From positions 1 through 21,544 of IMG/VR virus record IMGVR_UViG_3300048447_000082: a DNA stretch of 21,544 nucleotides, one strand, 5' to 3'. Within the stretch, counting starts at the first letter, position 1, and each line of letters opens with the position of its first letter. This DNA is from a virus. Made by a program: the position numbers and the translations under genes. Below, piece after piece: positions 9,873 through 14,806 of this stretch. Under the pieces are notes generated by a model. The model had not been told where the DNA came from. It saw nothing but the letters and a program-made list of their open reading frames with translations, and made no database searches.

Positions 9873-10069
9873 TGTTCAGTCTCTGGATCCACCTACGAGC
9901 ATTCTTTTCTGTTGTAGTGGTGAGTTGTGCTCACCCTGTCAACTGGGAGCATTGTGTTCGTGTGGACCAGTGGCTCTTGCCAGAAGTCAAGGAAGGGTAT
10001 AGACTATGGACAGGACAAACGCACCCCTATCAAAATGAAAAAGATTATCTCGACCTCCCCTCTAAATAG
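9872..10069 (+). CDS. Putative small lipoprotein or membrane-anchored protein, 65 aa
   Basis: ATG 9872 shares one base with the mazG stop. The N-terminus is a hydrophobic stretch after one Arg (MFSLWIHLRAFFSVVVVSC); V-V-S-C at residues 16-19 fits a lipobox, with Cys19 as the would-be lipidated residue. The mature part is soluble, with AHPVNWEHCVRVDQWLLPEV, a Trp-rich middle and a polar end. It could act at the cytoplasmic or outer membrane of the host, for example in superinfection exclusion, or it may be a plain single-pass protein. Another frame here (9781-10002) does not look real. The stop codon lies inside the terminator hairpin that follows. Confidence 0.6.
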   Translation: MFSLWIHLRAFFSVVVVSCAHPVNWEHCVRVDQWLLPEVKEGYRLWTGQTHPYQNEKDYLDLPSK

Positions 10070-10088
10070 TTAGACGGGAGGTTTTTTT
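10053..10088 (+). terminator. Intrinsic terminator whose 3' arm is the next gene's ribosome site
   Basis: ACCTCCC (10053-10059) pairs with GGGAGGT (10076-10082); after a C/C mismatch the stem continues TCTAA (10061-10065) with TTAGA (10070-10074) around ATAG. Seven T follow (10082-10088). It closes the gp43-uvsX-gp41-mazG unit. GGGAGG (10076-10081) is also an ideal Shine-Dalgarno, seven bases from ATG 10089. Confidence 0.9.
10062..10068 (+). promoter_or_regulatory. Candidate late promoter inside the terminator
   Basis: CTAAATA matches the cyanophage form of the T4 late promoter (TATAAATA at -10) and sits in the loop end of the hairpin. Transcription would begin about 7-9 bases after the motif, near 10076, exactly at the 3' arm that carries the ribosome site. 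Motifs of this length also occur by chance, so the position is what makes it persuasive. Confidence 0.55.
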
Positions 10089-11615
10089 ATGTCTAAGCAA
10101 GGAAGGGTAAACATTACAGGACAGTGGGAAGTAGCAGTCCGTAAGGTTCAAGAAGCATTAGCTGGTGCTGATCCTCAAGGAAAAGAGTTTGCTTATTTTA
10201 ACTATGATGTTAAAACTGCAGTTGATCCTAGTGATGCTGCAAACAAGAGAAAAAAGATCTTCTTTGGTATTAAAGTTTTAGTTCCTAAAAGCGGTAGAGC
10301 AGTAGCAGCTAATAGAATAACTAGAAATTTAACAGAAACATTTTCAGACGCTGTTGCTAGCAGAGACAATCAACAGATTGATATTCCAATTGTTGTTGGT
10401 GGAATTTCTAAATCTATTCGAGTAGAAGTAAAACCAGAAGCAGGTGGTGGATCTGGCGGCGGCGCAACAGAGACAGAACGTAATGAGTGTGCTCAGTGTT
10501 TGTATGCTGCTCTTGCTTTCTATGTTTATGGTGGACATATAGATCCAACTAAAATTATTTCCGAAGAAGATTTTCAACAGGCAGCAAAATATATTGATTT
10601 AAAAGATACAAAACTAGAACAAATCTATGGCGATGCTTTAGATCTTTCGTGGCATCATTCTTCTATCAAAGGTGCTAATAAACTTTGGGATGTCTTCGGT
10701 AGAAATTCTAGAGGTAGAAGATATACTTTCTGTCGTGGTGGTGGACCAGACGATAAAGAAATCAAAGCAGCATTTCAAAAAGTAAATGCTCAACTGAAGA
10801 GCGATCCTAATATTAGAGTATCTTTTTCTTCTGAAGATAAATGGAATCCAGCAGACATTTGGATGGTGGATAACTCTCTTAATATGTCTGAACTTGATGC
10901 TTTACAAACTGTAGATGCTATTAATAATTTTATCAAAGAAAAGTATGAATCTAAGGAATTGATTGGTGTATCTTTGAAACGAATTGCTGGTAGAGTTAAG
11001 ATGCAGGTTCTTAATTACCGTAAAGATGCTCGCGCATTAAAAGCATCTAAGTATGGTTTTAAAAAGTACGACTTAGTTTATAAGACATCATCAAAAAAAG
11101 ATAATAAAGATAACTATCCTATGGATGCATATCTTTATTACTATAATGGTGGTTATGACAAGTTCCAATCTAGAAACTTTGGCGATACAACAGCATCTTG
11201 GCAGTTAGAATTGAAAGCATCATCTGCTGCTGGTGGTCGTGCTGGTGGTGGTAGTGCTATTACTATATTAAAATCTTTAAACGTTAATTACGCTGGTCTT
11301 ACTAGTGGATGGGATAATAAACCTTTCCATCAGACATGTGATCCTAAAAACAAAACTTACAAGAAAAAAATTTCGGAAGACATTTTAGAACTTCTTAAAA
11401 AGTATAATGCATCTGGATTACCAAAAGATGATACTCAGGCACTTGGTGAAATATACCAAAGAAATCAATCTTGGAGATATTCCAAATTGTTGAGTCTGAG
11501 ATTACTTGATTGTATATCAACTTCTGGTAAGGGTGATGAAATTATGAGAGCTCTATATCTTTATGCGTCTTCTCAAACTGATAAATCATCTGTGTATGTG
11601 AAGTTGATGGATTGA
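10089..11615 (+). CDS. Unrecognised 508-aa protein with nuclease-like motifs
   Basis: ATG 10089 has a perfect ribosome site. Residues 1-115 form an alpha/beta-looking N-domain; residues 116-127 are a Gly/Ser linker (EAGGGSGGGATE). The second domain has TERNECAQCLYAAL (129-142), then KWNPADIWMV (251-260) and LIGVSLKRIA (291-300), and WQLELKA (371-377). A Glu helix, an Asp strand (Asp256) and an (S/E)-x-Lys strand (Lys297) in that order are what a PD-(D/E)xK-type nuclease core looks like, so a nuclease-like fold is possible. Arg is mostly AGA, unlike the CGT habit of uvsX and gp41, and the gene is poorer in GC-ending codons, which could mean separate origin. It could instead be a virion protein. 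Function not established. Confidence 0.85.
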   Translation: MSKQGRVNITGQWEVAVRKVQEALAGADPQGKEFAYFNYDVKTAVDPSDAANKRKKIFFGIKVLVPKSGRAVAANRITRNLTETFSDAVASRDNQQIDIPIVVGGISKSIRVEVKPEAGGGSGGGATETERNECAQCLYAALAFYVYGGHIDPTKIISEEDFQQAAKYIDLKDTKLEQIYGDALDLSWHHSSIKGANKLWDVFGRNSRGRRYTFCRGGGPDDKEIKAAFQKVNAQLKSDPNIRVSFSSEDKWNPADIWMVDNSLNMSELDALQTVDAINNFIKEKYESKELIGVSLKRIAGRVKMQVLNYRKDARALKASKYGFKKYDLVYKTSSKKDNKDNYPMDAYLYYYNGGYDKFQSRNFGDTTASWQLELKASSAAGGRAGGGSAITILKSLNVNYAGLTSGWDNKPFHQTCDPKNKTYKKKISEDILELLKKYNASGLPKDDTQALGEIYQRNQSWRYSKLLSLRLLDCISTSGKGDEIMRALYLYASSQTDKSSVYVKLMD

Positions 11616-11676: not shown

Positions 11677-12882
11677 ATGTCAAACGTCAAACAACTCAAG
11701 CACCTAGAGCACTTGGAAGATGAGATGCTGAACTATGGCGTTGATGGATGCAAGGCAGCAGTATCATTTCTCAAGGAACTGAGGAAGATGTTGGGTCAGC
11801 AGGAGAGCAGTGGTTTCATGCAAACCAAATGGGATGGTGCTCCTTCTGTTGTTTGTGGTGTTGATCCTCTGTCTGGTTTGTTCTTTGTTGGAACTAAGTC
11901 AGTCTTTAATAAGACAGAACCTAAGACTTGTTTTTCTGAAGAAGCAATTGATAATTATTACTCTGGAGACCTTGCTGAGAAACTAAAGTTTTCTCTACGC
12001 TACTTTAGTAAGTTGGGTATCAAGGGAGTTATCCAAGGGGATTTATTATATACAGATTCTACCGTAAATACAGAGGTGGTTGATGGAGAGAGACTATACA
12101 CATTTCGACCAAACACTATTACTTATGGCATCCCTACTGACCACGATATTGGTAAACAAGTTGGGAGATCTAAGATTGGAGTAGTGTTCCATACGCACTA
12201 CACTGGCGATTCTCTTGCTGAGATGCAGGCAAGAGCTGGTGCTCCTATTAATACATTCAATAAAATTACTGAATGTGCTGTGATTCCTAATGATACACCT
12301 ATGGATAGGGTTGGGTTTTCTAAATCAGAGATAAGAAAATTCGACAACTATATTACTAAGATTGAACGCATGTGTGGTATCTGTGGCAATTTCTTAGATG
12401 AATTAGTTGCCAAGACAGGTACTACTGGTGATGCTAAATTTCACATCGCATCTTATCTCAAGCAGTTCTTTAATAATGAGATCAAGAATGCTCGTAGTAT
12501 CTCCAACATCGATGAGACGATGTATGATATGTTGAACTTCTATGAAGAGAAAACAAGTAAAGAACTTGCCAAGATCAAGACAGTTGCGAACCTGACTAAG
12601 AAGAGAGAACTTGTATATGGTAGTCAGAACTACGTAGTAGATAATGTATACAAGTTCAAAGCAATGCTTACTTTGTATAAAGAACTGCAAGCAGTCAAGC
12701 AAATGGTTATAGATAAACTGGACCACCTGGAAGAGTTTAGAACATACGTTCAAACTGAAAAGGGATATAAGGTTACAACTCCTGAAGGATATGTTCTTCA
12801 CAAAGATGGCAGCATGATTAAGTTTGTTAATCGCCTGGAGTTTGCATACAATAACTTCACCCTACAGAAGCAATGGCGTTAA
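11677..12882 (+). CDS. Ligase-like nucleotidyltransferase-fold protein (DUF6267-type), 401 aa
   Basis: Opens with LKHLEHLEDEMLNYGVDGCK, the start of a widespread phage family that I know as DUF6267. Residues 50-56 are TKWDGAP: K-x-D-G is the motif I signature of the covalent nucleotidyltransferase fold shared by ATP-dependent DNA/RNA ligases and capping enzymes, with Lys51 as the would-be adenylated lysine. FFVGTKSVF (69-77) is in the place of motif III, GVIQGDLLY (117-125) resembles motif IV, and SKIGVVFHTHY (165-175) with Lys166 resembles motif V. The C-terminal half (about 215-400) is helical. Substrate unknown; RNA ligation or repair is a reasonable guess. It overlaps an HxGH-type nucleotidyltransferase by ten bases, a recurrent phage pairing. 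Confidence 0.85.
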   Translation: MSNVKQLKHLEHLEDEMLNYGVDGCKAAVSFLKELRKMLGQQESSGFMQTKWDGAPSVVCGVDPLSGLFFVGTKSVFNKTEPKTCFSEEAIDNYYSGDLAEKLKFSLRYFSKLGIKGVIQGDLLYTDSTVNTEVVDGERLYTFRPNTITYGIPTDHDIGKQVGRSKIGVVFHTHYTGDSLAEMQARAGAPINTFNKITECAVIPNDTPMDRVGFSKSEIRKFDNYITKIERMCGICGNFLDELVAKTGTTGDAKFHIASYLKQFFNNEIKNARSISNIDETMYDMLNFYEEKTSKELAKIKTVANLTKKRELVYGSQNYVVDNVYKFKAMLTLYKELQAVKQMVIDKLDHLEEFRTYVQTEKGYKVTTPEGYVLHKDGSMIKFVNRLEFAYNNFTLQKQWR

Positions 12883-13436
12883 ATTGTAATACTTGCTACT
12901 TTACATTTGGTAGGTTTCAACCACCTACCACAGGACACAAAGATAACTTTGATGGGGTGAGACGTATCGCAGGTAGTCATGACTATCGGATCTATATCTC
13001 TCAGACGTTTGATACTAAAGGTAAGAACCCCTTACCACCTGATCGTAAATTGTATTACATGAACTTGATGTTTCCAGAACATCGTGGTAAGATAATATCT
13101 GGACCCAAAGATCCTGTTGCTATTATGCAAGACTTAATGTTGGGGGGATATAATGAAGTTGTATTTTTAGTTGGATCTGATCGTGTTAGTGCGATGCAGT
13201 TCTTACACAAATACAATGGCAAAGACTTCTCGTTCAGAAAGATCGAGATACAATCTTCTGGTAGCAGAGATGCTGATGGAGATACCTTTGCTATTTCTGG
13301 AACGAAGATGAGACGTGCGGCATTTGCTAACGACTTTAAAACATTTCGTTCTGGTATTCCCAAAGCATTGAATGACAAACAGTGCCAGAAAATGATGGAA
13401 GAGATACAAGAAAATCTACCTGCGAATTTTAAATGA
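12873..13436 (+). CDS. HxGH-type nucleotidyltransferase (NMNAT/cytidylyltransferase-like)
   Basis: 187 residues. CYFTFGRFQPPTTGH (8-22) is the N-terminal nucleotide-binding strand plus a T/HxGH motif, and ISGTKMR (141-147) is the C-terminal ISSTxxR-type motif. Between them are FLVGSDRVSAMQ (98-109), the usual inner strand, and the flexible RDADGD loop. The fold transfers a nucleotidyl group to phosphate-bearing substrates: NMN plus ATP to NAD, or CTP to lipid or sugar phosphates. The substrate cannot be read from the sequence. It overlaps the ligase-like gene upstream and is coupled by ATGA to the next gene. NAD synthesis or RNA 5'-end chemistry would both suit a partnership with a ligase-like enzyme. 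Confidence 0.85.
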   Translation: MALNCNTCYFTFGRFQPPTTGHKDNFDGVRRIAGSHDYRIYISQTFDTKGKNPLPPDRKLYYMNLMFPEHRGKIISGPKDPVAIMQDLMLGGYNEVVFLVGSDRVSAMQFLHKYNGKDFSFRKIEIQSSGSRDADGDTFAISGTKMRRAAFANDFKTFRSGIPKALNDKQCQKMMEEIQENLPANFK

Positions 13437-13690
13437 AAGATTTCAAGAAACTACGAGAAGAAGCACTACGGCAACAACAGAGACAGGAAGAAATATTTAA
13501 AGAAGGTGATGCTGTTATGTCATCACGTACAGGAGAGAAGGGACATCTTCATAGAGTAGGCGGAAACTATGCTATCGTAATTTCTGAAGAAGGTAATATG
13601 TTTAGAGAATGGATTAGGAATATTAGATCTATAAATAATACGAGAAGAACCTCCTTGTTAAACGATGAAGTATCAGAAGACAGTCAATAG
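13433..13690 (+). CDS. Small protein with KOW-like middle, 85 aa
   Basis: ATGA overlap with the preceding gene. The N-terminus MKDFKKLREEALRQQQRQEE resembles T4 capsid-targeting peptides (MKTYQEF...). The middle, EGDAVMSSRTGEKGHLHRVG, then GNYAIVISEEGNMFREWIRN, is a small beta unit (G-D-x-V ... G-x-x-G-x-x-H-R-x-G-x-N-Y) of KOW/SH3-like flavour known in cyanophage ORFans. The C-terminus is polar. It overlaps the next gene by 26 bases and contains that gene's late promoter. Role unknown; a capsid-associated or nucleic-acid-binding protein is possible. Confidence 0.7.
   Translation: MKDFKKLREEALRQQQRQEEIFKEGDAVMSSRTGEKGHLHRVGGNYAIVISEEGNMFREWIRNIRSINNTRRTSLLNDEVSEDSQ
13630..13637 (+). promoter_or_regulatory. 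Late promoter, perfect TATAAATA
   Basis: Exact T4 late consensus, 27 bases upstream of ATG 13665 and inside the previous gene. Initiation would be near 13645. Confidence 0.65.
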
Positions 13691-14219
13691 CGTTAACAAT
13701 AATGACGAGTTTTCGTCTGAGTTGATGGAAGCATATGGTAAATGGATGGGTGGAGACACCTTCCAGAATACTACCATTAGCGAAGCAGCATTTGATGGTA
13801 TGCCACAGCAGTCCAATGGTGCTGAAATTGAAGACACTACGGTAAAAGCAAAGAAAGCAAAGAAAACGGTCAAGAAAGAAGAAGTAGAAGTTCTTGAGCG
13901 CGAAGAGTATGAGATCGATGGCGAGATTTATGTCATCGAGAAAGTAAAGATGGATGGCGTTGATGACAACGGCAACACCTCATGCTGGAAAGGATATAAG
14001 AAGCAAGGCACCAAGAAGAAAGGTGGTAAAGAAGTTAACAACTGTGTAAAAGCAGGTGTTGAATATGAAGGTGATGAACTCACTGAAAAGAAACTTGACC
14101 CCGTAGGTAAGGCAGATGCTGACATCGACAATGATGGCGATGTAGATAAGTCTGACAAGTATCTCCACATGCGTCGTAAGAAGGTCTCCAAGATCATTGG
14201 TATGTCAAAGAAAAAATGA
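13665..14219 (+). CDS. Basic late protein with dockerin/EF-hand-like loop, 184 aa
   Basis: Starts at ATG 13665, behind a perfect late promoter. Residues 60-90 are a Lys/Glu-rich stretch (KAKKAKKTVKKEEVEVLERE). Residues 106-128 have the cyanophage virion-type block CWKGYKKQGTKKKGGK...NNCV with two Cys. DADIDNDGDVDKSDKYL (151-167) matches a Ca-binding loop: Asp153, Asp155, Asp157, Gly158, Val160, Asp164. The end (RRKKVSKIIGMSKKK) is basic. Such D-x-D-x-D-G motifs recur in T4-like cyanophage small proteins, likely internal or prohead-core components. The mixture of basic, acidic and calcium-loop segments fits DNA or core binding rather than an enzyme. Confidence 0.75.
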   Translation: MKYQKTVNSVNNNDEFSSELMEAYGKWMGGDTFQNTTISEAAFDGMPQQSNGAEIEDTTVKAKKAKKTVKKEEVEVLEREEYEIDGEIYVIEKVKMDGVDDNGNTSCWKGYKKQGTKKKGGKEVNNCVKAGVEYEGDELTEKKLDPVGKADADIDNDGDVDKSDKYLHMRRKKVSKIIGMSKKK

Positions 14220-14575
14220 AAACATTTAGACAACTTCGTGAAGATTGTGGCAGTAGTTGCCCCAAAGACTGCAAGAAGAGTTGCTGCAATAAAAAAACCA
14301 AGAAAAAAGAAAAGAGCACTGTAGAAGTCATGCCTACTGTTAATGACGGACAGAAGGGCATGGTTACTAAACCTACTAATGAGTCAAAGAACTATCAGGG
14401 TCCTTTGTATGCTCCATGGTCTGCTGTTGTTAAAGGCAGAGGTTTTGATCCGCTAGAAGAATCTTTTGAAACTGGTGTAGCAAAAGCAAGACGCGACTAC
14501 CGTTCTGGAACACTTTTAAATTTTAAACAGTTCATGTCAAAATTGACATCTATTTTAGACGAGTGGGAGAAATAA
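14216..14575 (+). CDS. Cys-rich late protein, 119 aa
   Basis: ATGA overlap with the preceding gene. The N-terminus MKTFRQLREDCGSSCPKDCK continues with SCCNKK: Cys at 11, 15, 19, 23 and 24 in a regular C-x3-C-x3-C-x3-CC ladder, followed by KKTKKKEK. The pattern suggests metal (Zn or Fe-S) or disulfide binding. The first ten residues again resemble a T4 capsid-targeting sequence. The C-terminal half is less basic, with LYAPWSAVVKGRGFDPLEES and FKQFMSKLTSILDEWEK, likely helical. No family recognised. The stop overlaps a candidate late promoter for the next gene. Confidence 0.7.
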   Translation: MKTFRQLREDCGSSCPKDCKKSCCNKKTKKKEKSTVEVMPTVNDGQKGMVTKPTNESKNYQGPLYAPWSAVVKGRGFDPLEESFETGVAKARRDYRSGTLLNFKQFMSKLTSILDEWEK

Positions 14576-14578
14576 ATA
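14572..14578 (+). promoter_or_regulatory. Candidate late promoter ATAAATA
   Basis: ATAAATA overlaps the stop codon of the previous gene and lies 24 bases before ATG 14603. It is one base short of the full consensus. Confidence 0.45.
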
Positions 14579-14600
14579 GTTCATGCTCTATGACATGAAC
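14579..14600 (+). repeat. Perfect hairpin just ahead of ATG 14603
   Basis: GTTCATG (14579-14585) and CATGAAC (14594-14600) form a 7-base stem with an 8-base loop, ending two bases before the start codon. No Shine-Dalgarno is visible here. It may control translation of the next gene, or be only partly present if transcription starts within it. Confidence 0.55.
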
Positions 14601-14602
14601 CA

Positions 14603-14806
14603 ATGTTATCCTTTCTACTTCCACTAGCATCCAAAATTATTTCTGATGCTGTTAATAAAATTCCAGAAAATGAAGAACTGGGCGAGAAACTTGTTGAGAT
14701 CTGTCTTGCTATTCTTGCTAAAGCAGTTAAGTTAACTAAGACTGACATGGACGATCAACTTCTAGAAGTTGTATCGAAAGCGATTGCTGCTCGCAAAGAT
14801 TCTTGA
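14603..14806 (+). CDS. Small helical protein with hydrophobic N-terminus, 67 aa
   Basis: MLSFLLPLASKIISDAVNKI is a hydrophobic amphipathic helix; the remainder (ENEELGEKLVEICLAILAKA, then KLTKTDMDDQLLEVVSKAIA) is two more helices. The '(K)TDxDDxLLxxV' ending is shared by small phage proteins of unknown function found in many tailed phages. It might associate with a membrane through its first helix, but a full transmembrane span is not clear. It lies between a hairpin and a perfect late promoter. Confidence 0.7.
   Translation: MLSFLLPLASKIISDAVNKIPENEELGEKLVEICLAILAKAVKLTKTDMDDQLLEVVSKAIAARKDS

Follow-up and report, generated by a model that had tools for sequence, protein, structure and literature searches.

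A late-promoter hairpin slot of T4-like marine phages holds exchangeable proteins with PD-(D/E)xK-like motifs

The gene at 10089-11615 and its family

The window (the whole stretch of DNA analysed, 21.5 kb) shares 99.6% identity with the T4-like cyanomyovirus Synechococcus phage ACG-2014j (KJ019089); the gene treated here, its leader, and the two genes following it lie on the + strand. The exact ORF at 10089..11615 is a real gene, and its 508-aa product is identical to the 'hypothetical protein' AIX28499.1 of ACG-2014j. It is preceded by mazG and a 65-aa ORF, and followed by a DUF6267 gene and an NMNAT/cytidylyltransferase-like gene. The phrog_1462 profile matched the protein over its whole length (residues 7-507, E=5.6e-144), and the corresponding annotation, T4-GC_533, is found in Syn1, P-SSM7, P-HM1, S-SSM5, S-BM1, and S-MbCM7. 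The full-length alignment and the shared position between mazG and T4-GC_71/T4-GC_190 make the window protein a member of T4-GC_533/phrog_1462, from which it shows no difference; the family was simply known without a function. We refer to it as type A of the alleles found in this slot.

The family was found by tblastn in 54 phage records with the window protein as the query and in 92 with a distant member as the query (overlap with the 54 uncounted). Profile-guided scans of IMG/VR added at least hundreds more relatives, including some from non-cyanophage contexts (Pseudoalteromonas phage XG4), and the few relatives in bacterial genome collections, all on MAG or single-cell contigs, are probably phage. 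The preliminary description of this DNA had called the protein an orphan, which is wrong in view of this large family. The dN/dS values of the window gene against four relatives were ~0.16-0.28, indicating purifying selection on the slot gene. Sequence searches of Pfam, NCBIfam, PADLOC, and PDB with the slot protein gave nothing above noise, and BFVD yielded, besides members of the family, two distant phage proteins as weak matches.

Arginine is encoded in the slot gene by 16 AGA versus 5 CGT codons, and its GC3 of 0.20 is the lowest among the tabulated genes. A contrast between AGA here and CGT in the neighbours, drawn earlier, is correct for the slot gene and for uvsX, pol43, and regA, in which CGT is preferred, but not for gp41, DUF6267, and gp61, in which AGA exceeds CGT. 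The low GC3 and the use of AGA are compatible with cassette exchange and are no proof of foreign origin.

Late promoter and hairpin in the leader

The leader contains an intrinsic-terminator-like hairpin at 10052..10083 (GACCTCCC...GGGAGGTT, with a T run after it; -18.2 kcal/mol, z -4.0). A T4-type late promoter motif, CTAAATA, lies within the hairpin at 10062..10068, and the Shine-Dalgarno sequence GGAGG is located on its 3' arm at 10077..10081, 7 nt before the ATG. The same layout was observed at seven other loci (L007, L009, L017, L023, L034, L036, and L043). The motif [CA]TAAATA was present within 60 nt of the start in 190 of 221 family genes, against a shuffle expectation of 4.5%, and also in every leader of the phrog_613 head protein (14/14), whereas it was not detected at the starts of gp41 (0/119), uvsX (0/52), mazG (0/109), and DUF6267 (0/151; 0/431 in total). 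The cyanomyovirus late promoter has been reported as NATAAATA (PMC2984593), with which the CTAAATA of the window agrees in the TAAATA core only. Judged from these motifs, the slot gene is predicted to be transcribed late.

A strict stem followed by a T run was counted in 24 of 222 family-A leaders and 9 of 19 allele-B leaders, and in none of the leaders of two other late genes (0/75 and 0/14), showing that the full device occurs in a minority of leaders and the promoter in most. This strict count replaced an MFE-based count of promoters in hairpins, which was too loose (71% in shuffled controls versus 50% in real leaders).

In the leaders of T4 e, soc, 49, and I-TevI, early read-through RNA conceals the Shine-Dalgarno sequence, and the 5' arm is missing from late RNA (PMC3014915). 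The slot leader shares with these T4 leaders a late promoter in the hairpin region and a Shine-Dalgarno sequence on the 3' arm; however, its hairpin adds the terminator-like T run and persists while the gene body is swapped. The gene had previously been described as having its own switch-like leader and as being the first gene of an island. Both descriptions are borne out and are accounted for by the late-promoter hairpin, with which the slot gene opens a late unit comprising itself, DUF6267, and the NMNAT-like gene.

The late unit and its probable packaging into virions

The next gene of the late unit, DUF6267 (T4-GC_71; 11677..12882; PF19782, E=2e-124), carries a KWDGAP motif and lies downstream of the slot gene in most family loci; 468 phage records were found to carry DUF6267. 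It is followed by the NMNAT/cytidylyltransferase-like gene (T4-GC_190; 12873..13436), orthologues of which have been detected in cyanophage virions, including that of S-SM1 (PMC3037559). In DUF6267, the KWDGAP is nearly invariant and is accompanied by an invariant QGD, the two resembling motifs I and III of covalent nucleotidyltransferases/ligases; a comparison of DUF6267 with the PDB gave no match above noise.

In T4 capsid targeting, residues 4 and 7 serve as the target signal and residues 8 and 10 serve processing (PMC9026906). By this rule (residues 4, 7, 8, and 10), capsid-targeting-like N-termini such as MKSFRSFLTEG, MKSFKDYIAEA, and MKSFFQFLSEA were found in 17/247 proteins of the slot family, 34/166 of DUF6267, and 67/164 of the NMNAT-like family, compared with none in gp41 (0/166), uvsX (0/85), and mazG (0/126; 0/377 for the controls together) and 31/2319 among other ORFs. 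In distant phages, all three late-unit proteins can possess such N-termini. The slot protein of the window has no capsid-targeting sequence recognisable by the residue rule. Its orthologue in S-SCSM1, SSCSM1_90, is annotated as 'virion protein', and the S-SCSM1 study identified 45 proteins by MS from purified virions (PMC9602691). The slot protein of S-SZBM1 (gene 142, allele C) is absent from the published virion list, in which its neighbours 139 and 140 appear; S-SZBM1_139, considered as a virion-detected slot orthologue, was set aside as a different gene.

Exchange of alleles in the slot

The position between the gp41/mazG and the DUF6267/NMNAT-like genes is a cassette slot of T4-like marine phages. 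The proteins gp41, mazG, and the 65-aa ORF are 100% identical between the window and ACG-2014e, and DUF6267 is 97% identical, whereas the slot proteins share 53% identity; at the DNA level, the 98.9% identity extends to ~10100 and ends just inside the slot ORF. Similarly, Syn1 and one S-RIM44 isolate share mazG (99%) and cyt (100%) and have unrelated slot proteins, while other S-RIM44 isolates have allele A in the slot. Allele B (phrog_8438 in S-RSM4) is found in S-RSM4, S-RIM32, and S-CAM1, and allele C in S-SZBM1 and S-WAM1. A new IMG/VR sample supplied 63 ORFs located immediately before DUF6267: 19 of type A, 4 of type B, 7 of type C, and 33 without a match to any of the three. Most of these 33 belong to further families, and two are gp41 itself, the slot being apparently empty.

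Alleles B, C, D/G (L438, L407), and I (L454) share with A the position, the late motif, and a conserved D...SxK (in I, D and SLK), but have no detectable overall homology with it; A aligns only with D/G, and at the motif only. HHalign comparison of the A, B, and C profiles with each other found no homology.

A group of occupants of ~230-260 aa was also observed upstream of DUF6267 (L425, L427, L431, L451, and L456), one with the capsid-targeting-like N-terminus MKINEVITEAG. At L375 (~1900-1942) and L013 (5685-5757), the slot gene directly follows a tRNA gene, annotated as tRNA-Ala in S-SCSM1, or, in S-RIM32, a tRNA-like 3' end, which is a possible recombination site.

Invariant residues and the predicted fold

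The N-terminal domain of the slot protein (residues 1-118; 10089..10442) is variable, with poor conservation across the family. It is followed by the motif GSGGGATETERNE (residues 121-133; 10449..10487), which begins helix 121-146 and ends in E133, by NPADIW with D256 (10845..10862), by GVSLK with S295-L296-K297 (10965..10979), and by the nearly invariant Q360-x-R362 and E374 (11166..11210), the candidate for a relocated acidic residue. In a set of 28 sequences, mostly from tblastn, E133, W188, W252, P254, D256, N279, S295, L296, K297, N309, D346, Q360, E374, A380, and K505 were invariant (28/28). In an alignment of 234 sequences, E133 was conserved in 233 and D256, S295, L296, and K297 in all 234, where the counts for W252, P254, and D256 are partly ascertained because the IMG/VR search pattern included KW.PADI, E133 and SLK being outside the pattern. 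The other counts were 231/234 for G125, 227/234 for T129, 228/234 for E374, 227/234 for R362, and 226/234 for Q360. D256 and K297 were invariant even in relatives at 17-25% identity. The Gly/Ser linker, Glu-bearing helix, NPADIW, and GVSLK noted in the preliminary description are thus all in place, and the conservation of D256 and K297, for which it had proposed a homologue alignment, was confirmed.

AlphaFold2 modelling with 145 sequences gave a pLDDT of 92.8 and a pTM of 0.80. In the model, E133 lies inside helix 121-146, D256 just ahead of strand 257-261, and K297 just past strand 291-296; two helices (266-271 and 275-287) are inserted between D256 and K297. The order resembles that of PD-(D/E)xK nucleases and their SxK variants, namely a Glu helix, D ahead of a strand, and SxK closing the strand that follows; however, the slot protein differs from them by a D-to-K spacing of 41 residues with inserted helices, by Ser in place of the acid of (D/E)xK, and by yielding no fold or profile match. 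SxK variants exist among PD-(D/E)xK nucleases, such as Cfr10I/Bse634I.

The Foldseek search of the PDB with the whole model gave no match at E<0.001 and no nuclease among the matches listed, at the top of which were Pol beta, mu, lambda, RelSeq, and FaRel2 (E 0.02-0.5). The model of residues 119-400 alone, a core that includes every candidate catalytic residue, gave a best E of 0.95, with no nuclease and no Pol X-type match listed. As the core model finds no such enzyme, the Pol-beta-like match of the predicted structure probably stems from the variable N-terminal domain (1-118), or it was simply weak. Foldseek thus supports neither a nuclease nor a transferase fold for the core, although divergent superfamily members can escape it. 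Given this null result, the protein is not filed as a PD-(D/E)xK member, but the working analogy stands. Of the PD-(D/E)xK-like core proposed earlier, the residue order, the invariance, and the slot context hold, whereas a nuclease fold match was not obtained from AlphaFold and Foldseek.

Nuclease-like motifs in unrelated occupants

Of the seven occupant families, six (A, B, C, D, E, and G) have a conserved D followed by SxK 10-45 residues on, with column-permutation probabilities of 0.0025-0.03; the test on A is not independent, as family A had already been inspected when the pattern was drawn up. Family F has no conserved D...SxK by this rule, and of the eight control families, gp41 alone showed something similar. 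Among the singletons, L389 has a canonical ELK (GFQYELDL...KADLEL...KFELKEKL) and L454 has PKTDILIGNKRLSLKIG, together with the N-terminus MKGFKDFIDE; to judge by their residues, both read like textbook PD-(D/E)xK cores. Profile alignment of the window core with D/G placed NPADIW/LIGVSLK onto NSPADIV/LLGVSLK (41% identity, 27 columns), with p 0.0033, a probability of 9.6%, and a ~25-residue insertion falling in family A.

A proposed late-made, probably injected nuclease-like effector

The explanation that we prefer, with about an even chance of being right, is that the slot protein is a nuclease effector of PD-(D/E)xK-like type, made late, probably packaged in virions, and encoded at a locus where alleles are exchanged. 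The slot gene would be one allele of the cassette slot, with its own late promoter. The hairpin would stop transcription coming in from the replication genes and, on RNA that reads through, hide the Shine-Dalgarno sequence, whereas late transcripts without the 5' arm would allow translation of the slot protein. Together with DUF6267 and the NMNAT-like protein, it would then probably be packed in the head and, on ejection, enter the host alongside the DNA. The core would act as a metal-dependent PD-(D/E)xK-type nuclease through E133, D256, and S295-x-K297, perhaps with E374 as the relocated acid. Its target, which we infer may be nucleic acid of the host or of a defence system, or else a competing phage, would differ among alleles, which is the proposed reason for swapping the slot. 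The preliminary description had offered a nuclease and a virion protein as alternatives, but the late promoter, the capsid-targeting-like N-termini of relatives, and the S-SCSM1 annotation make the two readings compatible; a DNA-end protein, also suggested there, is unsupported.

A wider proposal is more tentative and, in our judgement, plausible but short of probable: that the conserved late-promoter hairpin slot swaps many unrelated PD-(D/E)xK-like nucleases, which are packaged with the KxDG ligase-like DUF6267 and the NMNAT-like protein as a host-delivered weapon or counter-defence payload.

The late promoter, the capsid-targeting-like N-termini of relatives, and the virion annotation in S-SCSM1 would also suit a non-catalytic role in the virion or inside the head. 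The slot product would then be a diversifying protein that binds DNA or counters restriction, in the manner of T-even internal proteins, and its invariant residues would be structural. The T-even internal head proteins (IPI-IPIII) are likewise late-expressed and allele-diverse, relatives of the module fit the T4 targeting rule, and the missing nuclease fold match agrees with such a role. The slot protein is non-homologous to them, much larger, and has an enzyme-like core, and that of the window has no recognisable capsid-targeting sequence. Against a non-catalytic role, the invariant E133, D256, and K297 and the near-invariant E374, in a family otherwise 17-40% identical, look catalytic, as does the recurrence of D...SxK in unrelated occupants. 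We consider this explanation unlikely, though with an appreciable chance of being correct.

A free-standing homing or interference endonuclease, that is, selfish slot genes acting on the DNA of co-infecting phages without the allele and with no virion delivery, would explain the exact gene replacement between identical flanks. The late-promoter hairpin device occurs in T4 I-TevI and has been reported or implicated for Aeh1 mobE and T4 segB, at least two sampled loci have a seemingly empty slot, and homing endonucleases are known in cyanophages. Against this, no match to GIY-YIG, HNH, or another homing family was obtained, nor any Pfam match in 145 members; the slot is occupied in most sampled loci; and packaging is suggested by the co-transcribed module, in view of its capsid-targeting-like N-termini and the virion annotation. 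We regard this explanation as rather improbable. Least probable by far is a nucleotidyltransferase-like enzyme of the Pol-beta/RelA-SpoT superfamily, ranked first by Foldseek with the full model, a reading that was dropped as the core-only model lost every such match and no DxD is conserved.

Few known phages are as abundant as the T4-like cyanophages, yet for the most part it is unexplained what accompanies their DNA into the host. If the wider proposal is true, these very common marine phages would carry an exchangeable nucleic-acid weapon or counter-defence payload. One locus with different nuclease-like proteins in near-identical genomes offers a tractable test of virion-delivered nucleases, with host range, counter-defence, and phage-phage competition at stake; invariant residues are available for mutagenesis, and natural allele swaps for comparison (S-RIM44 isolates; ACG-2014j versus ACG-2014e).

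Other features of the window

Late-promoter-like motifs were also observed at 14572, 14811, and 16495, ahead of the ORFs starting at 14603, 14847 (head protein, phrog_613), and 16534, respectively. Residues 4 and 7 agree with T4 capsid targeting in two small proteins, encoded at 13433-13690 (MKDFKKLREEA) and 14216-14575 (MKTFRQLREDC), and in all 19 relatives of the latter. The window is 30 bases shorter near this last ORF than KJ019089, where its 119-aa product is annotated only in an 81-aa form (locus 14360-14605), together with a longer DUF7201 gene.
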